The position numbers and the translations under genes were made by a program. This document shows positions 6,594-24,543 of a stretch of 24,629 bases of DNA, piece by piece (the first letter of the stretch is position 1; each line of letters starts with the position of its first letter). The notes under the pieces were generated by a model. It was not told where the DNA came from. It did no database searches and saw only the letters and a program-made list of their open reading frames with translations. The DNA is from a virus: positions 1 to 24,629 of IMG/VR virus record IMGVR_UViG_3300035665_000229; one strand, 5' to 3'.

Positions 6594-6625
6594 GGGGGCG
6601 GGAGCCTTGCGAGCTGCCCGCCCCC
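6594..6625 (-). other. Second GC hairpin between the SSB-like gene and the 6504 gene
   Basis: GGGGGCGGG (6594-6602) and CCCGCCCCC (6617-6625) form a perfect 9-pair stem with a 14-base loop. A copy of the 10-mer begins two bases beyond the right arm (6627-6636). No T-run follows, so it may protect the mRNA 3' end rather than terminate transcription. Confidence 0.5.
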
Positions 6626-7236: not shown

Positions 7237-7272
7237 GCGAACGCGGTTCCCGCGTCAGCGGACCGCGTTCGC
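7237..7272 (-). other. 11-pair hairpin enclosing the stop codon of the ATPase gene
   Basis: GCGAACGCGGT (7237-7247) and ACCGCGTTCGC (7262-7272) pair perfectly across a 14-base loop containing the TGA at 7257-7255. The right-hand arm is coding sequence (Ala-Asn-Ala-Val). A TTCCCC and pyrimidine-rich run follows leftward, so this may be a weak terminator or a pause site that responds to ribosomes reaching the stop. Confidence 0.55.
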
Positions 7273-8181: not shown

Positions 8182-8709
8182 TCAGTTCGAGAAGTCGTTG
8201 CCGATGAAGGTCGGGGCCCTGAAGCCGCCGGGCAGGATGTCGGGCATTCCGTCGTTGAAGGAGCTCATGTCTGCCTCGCGGGGAGCGGGCTTCATGTCCC
8301 ACTCTACGGGGGCGTCCGGGTCCACGGGCTGCTCCCCGATGATCTGGGTGCCTTCGGGCGAGATCATGGCGACCGGGACGGTGTGCACGCGCTGGACCGG
8401 CATGGGCCCTTGGAAGTCCGGGGACGGGCGGGGCATCTCGCGCCAGCCGGGGATGGTCACCTCGATGCGCTTGCGGAAGTTGATGCCCAGATCCTCGCAC
8501 CACCCGCTGAAGGTGGAGTACGAGGGCTTGACACCGTGCATCTCGCAGAACGCCCGGTGGAGCTGCTGCCTGTTCTCGATGTCCGGGTTCGCCTTCACGG
8601 CCTCCGCGATGCGTGGTGCGATCACGAGCCGCAGGCAGTCATGCCACATGACGGGCCCGAGCACGGACCTCCCTGCTTCCTGGCTGGTGGGGTTAGGTGC
8701 TTCCTCCAT
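8182..8709 (-). CDS. Probable HTH-like DNA-associated protein, function unknown
   Basis: This encodes 175 residues from an ATG with GGAG seven bases upstream, overlapping the exonuclease gene by 17 bases. Residues about 35-75 (LVIAPRIAEAVKANPDIENR then LHRAFCEMHGVKPSYSTFSG) look like a helix-turn-helix region with a Ser-Thr-Phe-Ser-Gly-Trp recognition-type helix. The rest is Pro-rich and probably disordered, with several Met-Pro and Asp-Pro repeats. Lying between exonuclease and ATPase, it might regulate the cluster or act as an accessory. The function is not established by sequence. The copy of the 10-mer that follows the exonuclease stop codon encodes Asn-Pro-Thr-Ser at residues 6-9. Confidence 0.6.
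   Translation of the reverse strand: MEEAPNPTSQEAGRSVLGPVMWHDCLRLVIAPRIAEAVKANPDIENRQQLHRAFCEMHGVKPSYSTFSGWCEDLGINFRKRIEVTIPGWREMPRPSPDFQGPMPVQRVHTVPVAMISPEGTQIIGEQPVDPDAPVEWDMKPAPREADMSSFNDGMPDILPGGFRAPTFIGNDFSN
8683..8692 (-). repeat. Exact 10-mer directly after the exonuclease stop codon
   Basis: The TAA of the exonuclease gene (8695-8693) is followed directly by CCCCACCAGC leftward. Because the next gene has already started, the copy is also coding (Pro-Thr-Ser). Confidence 0.85.
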
Positions 8710-9919
8710 TGTCGATCTCCGTGTGAGTGTCCCTGTCGCGTTGCAGGAAACCCTCAGCCAGAATCAACTCAGGCCACTTGCCAGGCTCGACCATGTGGAA
8801 CGGCAGGTACGGCGACGGAGTGCCGTGCTGAACTACCGGATCACCAATCTCGAATTCGCTGGGCTGGGACGGGCGCTGTGTGTACTTCCGGATGAAGGAC
8901 AGGCGATCATGGTACTCGGTCTTGAGATCTTCCGCAAGAAGAAGTTCCGCGGAAGTGGTGGAAATCGCGATGCACGGATCGGTCAGCCGCTCGGGCTCGA
9001 AGTGGCTGTACTCTCCGCGTCCCAGGTACCAATCCAGGCAGCGTTGTTCGTAGAGGTACGGGTCAGGCTCGCCCGTGTAGATCCGCTCGTTGCGCGGCTC
9101 GCCCTTGCGGGGGCCGCTCTTGAACGGGCTTTCGTCCAGCGTGAAGGGGCGGTCCTTCAGCCCGAACTCGATGCTGGGCTTGCGCACGGCGATGTGCAGG
9201 ACGCCGCCTATCTTGTCGCTGCCCCATTGCAGCGCCAGCTCGGGTGAGTCAAGTTCCATGGCCTCGAGCAGGGTGTGGAAGTAGTGCTGCGTTTGGAACT
9301 CGAGAGGGCAGGTCTGCAGGCGGGCATTTGTGGACATGGACGTGGTCTTGAAGTCCACGATCCACAACTTGCCTGCCTTGTCCCGGAGGATGCAGTCGGG
9401 CTGGATCAGCCGGTCGCCGACCTTGATCTCGGGCTCCTGCTCCACGACGGTCCAGTCCTCCGCGAACCGCTGGCCCAGCGTCTTGCCGCTGCCGTCCGGT
9501 ACCTGGAGCGCCGCGTTGAACCACGCGATGCTGGTGCGTGCGTCCTGCTCCTCCCTCGCCACCATCTCCCGGACCTTGTCGCCGGACACGCCCATCTGTT
9601 TGCACACGTCCCGCAGTTCCTCGCACCGAGCGACGATGGCCTGCTCCAGCGTCAGGGCCCGCTCGGTGGGGTCATCGAGGATGCACGCGAACGCCAGGTG
9701 GACCCAGCTGCCCCGGCTCAGGGCACGGCTGTACTGGAACGCCTTGACCAGCCCGAGCTTGCGGGACAGGTAGTAGGTGCGGGGGCAGGACCGGAGGAGC
9801 CGGTAGTCGCTGCTGCGGATGTGGGGCCTACGGGCGAAGATGCCGTGGGCCTCGAGCCACGAACGGACATCGTCAAGAATGCTGGTGGGATAGGACGCCT
9901 GGCTGGTGGGGGGTGGCAT
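8693..9919 (-). CDS. PD-(D/E)XK (Cas4/RecB-type) exonuclease
   Basis: This encodes 408 residues from an ATG with AGGAG six bases upstream. The N-terminal SSDYRLLRSCPRTYYLSRKL (about residues 36-55) is the first motif of Cas4/RecB-like nucleases, and G-S-W-V-H near residue 74 gives the conserved His. The catalytic core is PDCIL (Asp about 175) followed by WIVDFKTT (Asp 189, Lys 191). The C-terminal cysteines that bind an Fe-S cluster in true Cas4 are not visible, so this is more likely a plain phage exonuclease of the PDDEXK_1 type. It heads the recombination cluster (exonuclease, HTH-like, ATPase, SSB-like) and probably resects DNA ends for it. Expression probably starts from the region upstream. 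Confidence 0.85.
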   Translation of the reverse strand: MPPPTSQASYPTSILDDVRSWLEAHGIFARRPHIRSSDYRLLRSCPRTYYLSRKLGLVKAFQYSRALSRGSWVHLAFACILDDPTERALTLEQAIVARCEELRDVCKQMGVSGDKVREMVAREEQDARTSIAWFNAALQVPDGSGKTLGQRFAEDWTVVEQEPEIKVGDRLIQPDCILRDKAGKLWIVDFKTTSMSTNARLQTCPLEFQTQHYFHTLLEAMELDSPELALQWGSDKIGGVLHIAVRKPSIEFGLKDRPFTLDESPFKSGPRKGEPRNERIYTGEPDPYLYEQRCLDWYLGRGEYSHFEPERLTDPCIAISTTSAELLLAEDLKTEYHDRLSFIRKYTQRPSQPSEFEIGDPVVQHGTPSPYLPFHMVEPGKWPELILAEGFLQRDRDTHTEIDNGGST

Positions 9920-9937
9920 AGGGGACTCCTGGGGTTA

Positions 9938-9973
9938 GCGCACGCGGGGCGCGTAGCGCTCCCCCGCGTGCGC
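9938..9973 (-). other. 12-pair hairpin in the exonuclease leader
   Basis: GCGCACGCGGGG (9938-9949) and CCCCGCGTGCGC (9962-9973) pair perfectly around a 12-base loop. It ends 18 bases before the exonuclease start codon and close to its AGGAG site. No T-run follows, so it may be a processing or translation-control hairpin rather than a terminator. Confidence 0.55.
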
Positions 9974-10031
9974 GACTTTAGGGGGTAGCGTTGTATCATG
10001 TGCTTCACCCATGCTGATGATCTAACATCCC

Positions 10032-10099
10032 GCCTCGGGTCGGAGGCCAAGAACAAGATGCCGTGGGTTCGCCGGCAATGCGGGTAGTGGGAATCCCGC
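10032..10099. other. Three successive short stem-loops
   Basis: GCCTC/GAGGC (10032-10047), TGCCG/CGGCA (10059-10077) and GCGGG/CCCGC (10080-10099) each form five pairs. They could be a structured leader or part of an origin. They do not make a tRNA: no acceptor stem or proper T-loop is present. Confidence 0.35.
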
Positions 10100-10169
10100 T
10101 CAGCAAATGGGCTGTGTCGAAACCTAGGTCAACGGATCGAACTTACTACATTTCTTCACGTTTGTAGCA

Positions 10170-10196
10170 GTTTCGGTACGAAACGGTCGTTTCGTA
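10170..10196. promoter_or_regulatory. Overlapping operator-like palindromes
   Basis: TACGAAACGGTCGTTTCGTA (10177-10196) is a 9+9 perfect inverted repeat with a 2-base centre. GTTTCG-GTA-CGAAAC (10170-10184) overlaps it, so three half-sites alternate. This is the pattern of a repressor or initiator dimer site with a second, overlapping site. CGAAAC also recurs near 7208-7226. Confidence 0.55.
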
Positions 10197-10248
10197 AGCG
10201 GTAAGGAAAAGTGGTAAGTGTTTCTTACCGGCTGCGGGTTTCCGTAAG
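10194..10248. repeat. GTAAG repeat cluster with one inverted copy
   Basis: GTAAG occurs at 10194, 10201, 10214 and 10244 on the top strand, with CTTAC at 10224. The pair GGTAAG-TGTTT-CTTACC (10213-10229) forms a perfect 6+6 inverted repeat. The irregular spacing makes true iterons uncertain. Confidence 0.4.
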
Positions 10249-10255
10249 TGGAAGT

Positions 10256-10528
10256 TTAAGTTCCAGTCCGGCGGTACCCCACCCGCCAGAGGGCGGCGGA
10301 TATGGCGTTGGCCGTGTCGTGAACCGCTTCTTCGTCCAGGTCCCATAGCGCGGCGTGCAGGACCTCGTGGATGATCGAGTCCATGGTCCGCTCGTCGGGG
10401 TAGCCCAGGGCGATGCGGATGATCCGCTCCTCCTTGTGGCAAAGTCCCTCTGCGTCGCCGAGGTTGGGCACGAACCGCAAGCGCCAGCGCTGACCACGGA
10501 TCTTGAGGATGCGGTCGCCCTTCGCCAT
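10256..10528 (-). CDS. Small SprT-like / HExxH metalloprotease-type protein
   Basis: This encodes 90 residues. A zinc-protease motif HEVLH occupies residues 54-58, followed by a Trp-Asp-Leu-Asp-Glu-Glu helix that may supply a further ligand. The N-terminal half is a short beta region (ILKIRGQRWRLRFVPNLG). Small phage proteins of this layout resemble SprT-like or WLM-type metallopeptidases, although 90 residues is very short and a non-catalytic zinc protein is possible. The start has no Shine-Dalgarno: only the repeated motif (TGA, then ACCCCCACCAGCC, then ATG) separates it from the preceding gene. Its substrate is unknown. Confidence 0.75.
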   Translation of the reverse strand: MAKGDRILKIRGQRWRLRFVPNLGDAEGLCHKEERIIRIALGYPDERTMDSIIHEVLHAALWDLDEEAVHDTANAISAALWRVGYRRTGT

Positions 10529-10541
10529 GGCTGGTGGGGGT
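10529..10541 (-). repeat. Repeated motif filling the entire stop-to-start gap
   Basis: The 13 bases between the metallophosphoesterase stop TGA and the next ATG are exactly ACCCCCACCAGCC leftward. No AGGAG-like site is present. The 10-mer itself is 10530-10539. Confidence 0.85.
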
Positions 10542-23123: not shown

Positions 23124-23161
23124 CCCCCCGGCGGGGGACGCATCGCGGCCCCGCCGGGGGG
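23124..23161 (-). other. 13-pair GC hairpin between two genes
   Basis: CCCCCCGGCGGGG (23124-23136) and CCCCGCCGGGGGG (23149-23161) pair perfectly around a 12-base loop, and ATTTCC follows leftward. Arms begin or end in C6 or G6, as in the hairpins at 6538-6576 and 24504-24543. A partial terminator or RNA 3'-end protector is likely. Confidence 0.55.
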
Positions 23162-23796: not shown

Positions 23797-23832
23797 CCCC
23801 CACCAGCGTGCAGTAGCAGAGGCTGGTGGGGG
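23797..23832 (-). other. Hairpin formed by two opposed copies of the 10-mer
   Basis: CCCCCACCAGC (23797-23807) and GCTGGTGGGGG (23822-23832) are perfect 11-base inverted copies around a 14-base loop in the space between two genes. A shorter GGTGGGG follows at 23839. It is the only place where the motif makes a hairpin with itself. Confidence 0.6.
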
Positions 23833-24503: not shown

Positions 24504-24543
24504 CCCCACGCGGGGGGCGCAACGCGCCTCCCCCCGCGTGGGG
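24504..24543 (-). other. 14-pair GC hairpin in the leader of the second SSB-like gene
   Basis: CCCCACGCGGGGGG (24504-24517) and CCCCCCGCGTGGGG (24530-24543) are perfectly complementary around a 12-base loop, with T-rich sequence after it leftward. It could be a terminator for an upstream transcript or part of the leader of the 23848-24453 gene. Confidence 0.55.

Follow-up and report, generated by a model that had tools for sequence, protein, structure and literature searches.

A predicted anticodon-less tRNA-like RNA and probable overlapping divergent promoters beside the recombination operon of an uncultured phage

Mimicry of tRNA is well known in eukaryotic RNA viruses. In DNA phages, full decoding tRNAs are the rule, and to our knowledge tRNA mimicry has hardly been described in them. 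The viral tRNA-like structures of the TYMV type mimic the tRNA elbow (PMC4810234), and the element described below, termed E3, resembles them in an elbow-centred mimicry without a normal anticodon role. However, the TYMV-type structures lie 3′-terminally in plus-strand RNA genomes and use pseudoknots, whereas E3 appears to be a DNA-phage gene with a plain cloverleaf. Some phage tRNAs act against defences that cleave tRNAs: the T5 tRNA-Tyr counters retron-Eco7 and tRNA-Lys counters PrrC (PMC11555353). E3 would likewise be a phage-encoded, tRNA-shaped RNA with a possible anti-defence role, but these tRNAs decode and replace a cleaved tRNA, while E3 has no anticodon. Literature searches on phage tRNA-like RNAs found no description of the E3 family.

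A third relevant system is the pair of phage promoters that diverge, overlap and share an operator. As in such pairs, two putative -10 boxes face apart within one dyad region at the present locus; the locus differs in that no -35 element is recognised and one arm is predicted to make a tRNA-like RNA.

The gap and its setting

The window is an IMG/VR fragment of an uncultured virus, 24,629 nucleotides (24.6 kb) long, whose right three quarters run on the minus strand. Read along that strand, genes for DNA polymerase A, an ERCC4-type nuclease, a DNA-repair exonuclease and a SprT-like protein are followed by a gap of 336 bases, past which come genes for a PD-(D/E)XK exonuclease, for a small protein whose core has three helices and for an annealing ATPase of the Sak4 type. 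The comparison set consists of 52 IMG/VR loci that carry the nuclease at 45–100% identity, and about 60 IMG/VR contigs were compared overall, which brought out three conserved elements: a cloverleaf, a dyad and a leader hairpin. Relatives are given by L numbers. BLAST against named phages and plasmids returned nothing past one 26-base chance match. The borders of the gap and its right-hand features are as follows.

8693–9919, minus strand: PD-(D/E)XK exonuclease gene, first in the recombination operon; its start codon bounds the gap
9926–9930, minus strand: Shine-Dalgarno sequence AGGAG of the nuclease gene
10177–10196, no strand: 20-bp palindrome, an optional module
10213–10229, minus strand: terminator-like hairpin GGTAAG-AAACA-CTTACC, then ACTTTTCCTT, predicted to end the SprT-like transcript
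10256–10531, minus strand: SprT-like gene, a recurrent neighbour of E3; its stop codon bounds the gap

An initial annotation, made from the letters of the window, had read the gap as a control or origin region, and this is partly supported. Positions 9920–10255 are gene-free as claimed, filling exactly the space between the SprT-like stop codon and the nuclease start codon. The 20-base palindrome TACGAAACG-GT-CGTTTCGTA is present at 10177–10196 with an extra GTTTCG half-site at 10170, and a hairpin of 12 bp is present at 9938–9949/9962–9973. Four copies of GTAAG stand at 10194, 10201, 10214 and 10244 as described, but the supposedly single inverted copy is in fact two, with CTTAC at 10142 and 10224. 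In dinucleotide shuffles of the gap's own 336 bases, the palindrome has a p of about 0.005, and neither the 12-bp hairpin nor the GTAAG/CTTAC count was matched (0/1000 each). The right half is indeed richer in A+T (GC 0.64 on the left and 0.48 on the right). The gap, its palindrome, its repeats, its hairpin and its A+T bias are real and beyond chance. That it precedes the recombination cluster holds on a minus-strand reading only.

The initial annotation was right on a control region, stressed the wrong palindrome, and missed the putative tRNA-like RNA gene that makes up the main content of the region. It overlooked a plus-strand cloverleaf at 10007–10113 and an 18-bp dyad with -10 boxes at 9975–10008, which are the parts conserved among relatives. 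The palindromes that it stressed are, among the loci compared, the least conserved part of the gap. The 20-bp palindrome is absent from many relatives (e.g. L004, L011, L013, L014, L019 and L031) and is for this reason regarded as an optional module. The hairpin at 10213–10229, made by one GTAAG pair, is kept in most relatives, in L004 via wobble pairs. Taken as a whole, the gap gives the impression of being pieced together from exchangeable modules.

The E3 cloverleaf

E3 was parsed on the plus strand into the following parts.

10007–10113, plus strand: E3, a predicted tRNA-like RNA with a covarying four-helix cloverleaf in tRNA order
A10007, plus strand: predicted +1 of E3
10008–10017 with 10100–10104 and 10107–10111, plus strand: 5′ and 3′ strands of the acceptor
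10018–10019, plus strand: U8/G9
10020–10023/10056–10059, plus strand: D-stem AUCU/AGAU, with A14 and A15 at 10024–10025 and a 32-nt D-loop
10029–10031, plus strand: D-loop CCC, proposed to pair at the elbow with the T-loop GGG
10060–10076, plus strand: anticodon-position arm, stem GCCG/CGGC with a 9-nt loop
10077–10079, plus strand: variable AAU
10080–10084/10095–10099, plus strand: T-arm with a 10-nt loop
10089–10091, plus strand: T-loop GGG, proposed elbow partner of 10029–10031

The helices follow each other on the plus strand as acceptor, UG, D-stem, AA at 14–15, anticodon-position arm, U-ending variable region and T-stem, the last of 5 bp and stacked on the acceptor. In the alignment (A8), which was trimmed by hand to leave out D-loop inserts and anticodon loops, 98.4% of the 440 cells are paired, and 8 pairs change on both sides among 20 distinct sequences. 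The covariation score was reached by 0 of 500 shuffles; covariation is seen in 20–25 distinct relatives, with slid and shuffled controls far below. All four helices are covarying or invariant, and the D-stem AUCU/AGAU is invariant except for one G-U in L004 and L005. The elbow triple, which was picked after inspection, pairs in 60 of 60 cells across 20 sequences and in every sequence with a 10-nt T-loop, and shows double changes in L011 (UCU-GGA) and L089 (AUC-GGU). The tertiary positions match the canonical tRNA elbow, as in PMC4810234. For the copy in the window, the predicted folding energy is not out of the ordinary (z -0.55).

Fragments of tRNA genes are common relics of phage integration (PMC9897764), and it could be supposed that E3 no longer has a function and is either a tRNA gene in decay or what recombination left of an attachment site. 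The loss of the anticodon loop and the several relatives without E3 would agree with this. However, compensatory changes in the acceptor, T-arm and elbow, the invariant D-stem and the conserved joining nucleotides are found in very diverged phages, and together these imply continuing selection on E3. Moreover, E3 is a full cloverleaf rather than a 3′ fragment, and no integrase was recognised among the listed open reading frames of the window. A functionless relic is thus considered unlikely.

E3 was first recognised on the minus strand, where compensatory changes outlined a four-way junction, and was initially taken for a leader of the nuclease operon. In a cis-acting role of this kind, as a riboswitch or attenuator, the location of E3 upstream of the nuclease gene in the window group, on the same strand as the genes as first modelled, would be accounted for, and the minus strand also folds (z -1.6). 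This reading was overturned by the strand test and by the varying neighbours. The non-Watson-Crick paired cells are mostly A-C on the minus strand as first modelled, while on the plus strand G-U outnumbers A-C by 25 to 3; therefore, the plus strand is taken to be the RNA. In L069, L089 and L158, E3 lies on the opposite strand, 3′ of the SprT gene, and in L172–L181 it lies on the opposite strand, 5′ of it; in none of these does a nuclease gene follow. With its orientation so variable, E3 is not just a nuclease leader. In addition, E3 is absent from many relatives that share the dyad and the leader hairpin, and a minus-strand leader is quite unlikely.

Searches for E3 used a covariance model (R1), with which candidates from pattern scans were always rescored. 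R1 matches the window at 10009–10108 with 103.8 bits and finds E3 once per long record; further lineages were found by pattern scans and then R1. Several phage lineages carry E3 close to a SprT-like gene, in one or the other orientation; it is missing from L012, L016, L051 and the L021–L042 group. A genome scan of GTDB contigs gave 26 pattern matches and no convincing E3. The best GTDB model match followed up (Devosia L103) lies inside coding sequence, as do the last-pattern matches in L183, L184, L186 and L188, and a first-pattern match inside a tRNA array (L072) was set aside.

Several further observations concern E3 and its surroundings. An E3-like match in the A+T-rich phage contig L187 (4448–4553; 29 bits, E 6e-6) is on the same strand as the neighbouring genes and has a 17-nt T-loop. 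The long D-loop inserts of L069 (5699–5719) and L177 (1816–1836) share the 21-mer GGTTTATTCCCCGCTGCTGGC, which no other viral contig contains and which may resemble type I-E CRISPR repeats. The 13-mer AAGATGCCGTGGG in E3 (10055–10067, D-stem to anticodon-position arm) recurs at 9837–9849, early in the nuclease gene, and CGGCATCTT is found at both places in several relatives, which could be chance or reflect an interaction. Upstream of E3 in L011, the flanking module that reads GTGTACGC..TCGACAAGTCCAAATAACGTGTACG in L013 and L031 appears inverted.

E3 compared with canonical tRNA

By the tests applied to its sequence, E3 of the window is not a tRNA, yet it has the build of one. It matches no Rfam family: FinP (RF00107) scores 23.8 bits against a gathering cut-off of 45, and the traJ leader (RF00243) 20.2 bits against one of 50. 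Neither the Rfam tRNA cut-off nor ARAGORN calls it a tRNA, and the same is true of L172 and L013. In common with canonical tRNA (RF00005), it has arms in the order acceptor, D, anticodon, variable and T on the plus strand, a 5-bp T-stem on the acceptor, a 4-bp D-stem, the D-loop/T-loop contact, and U8, A14 and A15-U48. The residues corresponding to U8, A14 and R15 with residue 48 are found in all parsed sequences as UG at 8–9, AA at 14–15 and a U closing the variable region, with one extra nucleotide before A14 in L089.

In contrast to canonical tRNA, E3 has no normal 7-nt anticodon loop with U33 on a 5-bp stem. In most members, the arm at this position is 12–20 nt long and its loop measures 3 to 9 nt. 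The T-loop is 10 nt in most members (UAGUGGGAAU in the window) instead of the 7-nt UUCRANY, the D-loop ranges from 10 to about 140 nt, and no CCA is encoded. Apart from L185, members are missed by ARAGORN and Rfam.

A 7-nt T-loop is found only in L182 (UUGCAAU) and L185 (UUCGAGU). L182 carries a divergent E3 homologue (R1 E 6e-9) with this canonical-length T-loop, directly adjoining a gene that clears the tRNA cut-off of Rfam (35 bits), and its neighbours (SprT-like, metallophosphatase, RecT) are kept. L185, with canonical D- and T-loops, is the sole E3-type sequence to score as a tRNA (32.8 bits) and sits a base or two after a tRNA-Arg gene; its homology to E3 is uncertain because the pattern that led to it was itself built with E3 motifs.

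The dyad, the promoters and the leader hairpin

Between E3 and the nuclease gene lie the dyad, termed E2, with its two -10 boxes, and a leader hairpin, termed E1.

9991–10008, no strand: E2, 18-bp dyad, GTGAAGCACATGATACAA on the minus strand and GTGAAGTAACTACTTCAC in relatives
9994–9999, plus strand: -10 box TATCAT, 7 nt before A10007
9975–9980, minus strand: -10 box TAAAGT, 10 nt after the dyad
9938–9973, minus strand: E1, leader hairpin with a 12-bp stem, a 3-nt 5′ bulge, a CGC/GCG apical stem and a triloop

E2 is conserved in about 40 relatives (the core set) as GTGAAG-N6-CTTCAC or a degenerate form of it, and the full motif has one high-scoring copy per genome in the window and six long relatives. 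In the core set, the distance from the dyad to the minus-strand -10 hexamer is always exactly 10 nt. The hexamers found there in relatives (TAGAGT, TATAGT, TAAAGT, TAGATT, TAAGGT, TACGGT, TAGAAT and GACAAT), which fit TAnAGT or TAnnnT apart from GACAAT, keep A(-11) and T(-7), the most conserved -10 positions. On both strands, a sigma-70-type -10 hexamer stands at a fixed position relative to the conserved dyad. No -35 hexamer 16–18 nt upstream was recognised on either strand, and a plain sigma-70 scan gave none; a weak GCGACT lies 16 nt before the plus-strand -10, by eye only. The E2 region may be a promoter of the minus strand, with a site for a regulator lying over the -35 position. The promoter- or operator-like region proposed in the initial annotation is supported by the fixed 10-nt spacing of the conserved dyad and a -10 hexamer, although this dyad is not the palindrome that it had noted.

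The right half-site of E2 differs with the presence of E3. It is of the CTACA or TTACA type in all nuclease-operon loci that bear E3 (TTACA in L011, ATACAA in the window) and CTTCA in all that lack it (read by eye in L051). The former give a plus-strand TAnnAT (TAGTAT, TATCAT, TAGCAT or TAATAT) 7 nt before the A that opens E3, and this hexamer is absent in phages without E3. In the closest pair with and without E3 (L018/L016), a T-to-A change creates its first base. The link does not represent many independent events, because recombination may have carried E3 and E2 along as a unit. In groups other than that of the window, no consistent promoter was seen before E3.

A promoter-operator of a phage repressor could by itself account for the dyad at its fixed distance from the -10 box, with E2 as operator and E3 as an unrelated insertion. 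The second gene of the operon, at 8182–8709, encodes the small protein, whose predicted model has a confident three-helix core (residues 19–74). However, this protein has no Pfam or PHROG match, and its best match in a fold search, the N-terminal winged helix of AhrC (E 1.7), is not significant, so that no DNA-binding fold supports the reading, which also leaves E3 and the accompanying change in the dyad unexplained. On its own it is very unlikely, while a repressor acting on E2 would also fit the divergent-promoter explanation given below.

E1 lies directly 5′ of the nuclease ribosome site in 46 loci with 14 distinct sequences, and is always tied to the nuclease start codon. In relatives it has a 12–15-bp stem with co-varying letters, a small 5′ bulge and a CGC/GCG apical stem. 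The 14 distinct hairpins have zero mismatches; each of the 117 cells is paired, and both sides have changed in 7 of the 9 counted pairs, compared to 0–1 such pairs in slid controls. E1 is nearly free of G-U and folds with z -3.8. It is not followed by a T-run, and an intrinsic terminator was therefore ruled out. If the minus-strand -10 box is real, the outer 4–5 bp of E1 fall upstream of the expected start.

Other perfect GC-rich hairpins (9–14 bp, loops of 12–14 nt) lie near gene starts on the minus strand of the window, at 24504–24543, 23797–23832, 23124–23161, 7237–7272 and 6594–6625, some with an E1-like apical part, and similar ones are found near gene starts in G001, G002, G004, G005 and G012. 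These may be processing sites, terminators or leader stabilisers.

If the region were a DNA replication origin, E3 and E1 would be DNA hairpins or priming sites. The single copy per genome, free of orientation, the palindromes, the near absence of G-U from E1 and the tandem iteron-like repeats beside E3 in L172 (5630–5670) and L179 (3300–3450), of the types GTATNGACRC x3 and TAGGTACCCATAGG, could be brought into line with this. But the GC skew keeps its sign at the gap, both in the window and in six long relatives (one with a 127-bp terminal repeat), the G-U excess of E3 points to RNA, and E1 keeps to the nuclease start codon. The replication origin suggested in the initial annotation is not supported, and we hold it to be highly improbable.

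Probable divergent promoters and a possible role as tRNA look-alike

It is probable, on the basis of these comparisons, that the gap holds two divergent promoters that overlap and drive, respectively, an anticodon-less tRNA-like RNA and the recombination operon. On the plus strand, RNA polymerase would start near A10007 from TATCAT and make an E3 transcript of at least about 107 nt, with a tRNA-like fold that has the U8/A14/A15-U48 core and the D-loop/T-loop contact. On the minus strand, the TAAAGT -10 box would start the recombination operon, whose mRNA leader would carry E1 just before the ribosome site. The sequence comparison itself shows the helices and their strand, the fixed dyad–hexamer spacing, and the association of E3 with the plus-strand -10 box.

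The two promoters would overlap head to head within E2. Firing of one, or a protein bound to the dyad, should therefore block the other. The -10 boxes at 9994–9999 (plus strand) and 9980–9975 (minus strand) overlap each other's -35 zone, which would also lead to mutual hindrance. Transcription, its start sites, promoter competition and the look-alike role of E3 are inferred.

Since E3 has no usable anticodon loop, it is probably a tRNA look-alike and not a decoder, and might serve as a decoy or guide for host tRNA-handling enzymes. A stable, tRNA-shaped RNA that lacks an anticodon could mislead host tRNA enzymes or tRNA-targeting defences as a decoy, or be their substrate. The decoding phage tRNAs that counter defences (PMC11555353) are a lead for the function of E3, not a test of it.

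It is conceivable, though somewhat doubtful, that E3 represents a new family of anticodon-less tRNA-like RNAs of DNA phages, which act as tRNA mimics, with an elbow built on a Watson-Crick kissing triple and a promoter that overlaps that of the recombination operon. E3 is in any case a concrete candidate RNA, with its own predicted promoter, that appears to be kept by selection in several phage lineages. The family, if real, would be a non-decoding use of the tRNA fold in infection that tRNA finders and Rfam have missed, in which a tRNA look-alike may engage the host tRNA machinery on behalf of the phages.
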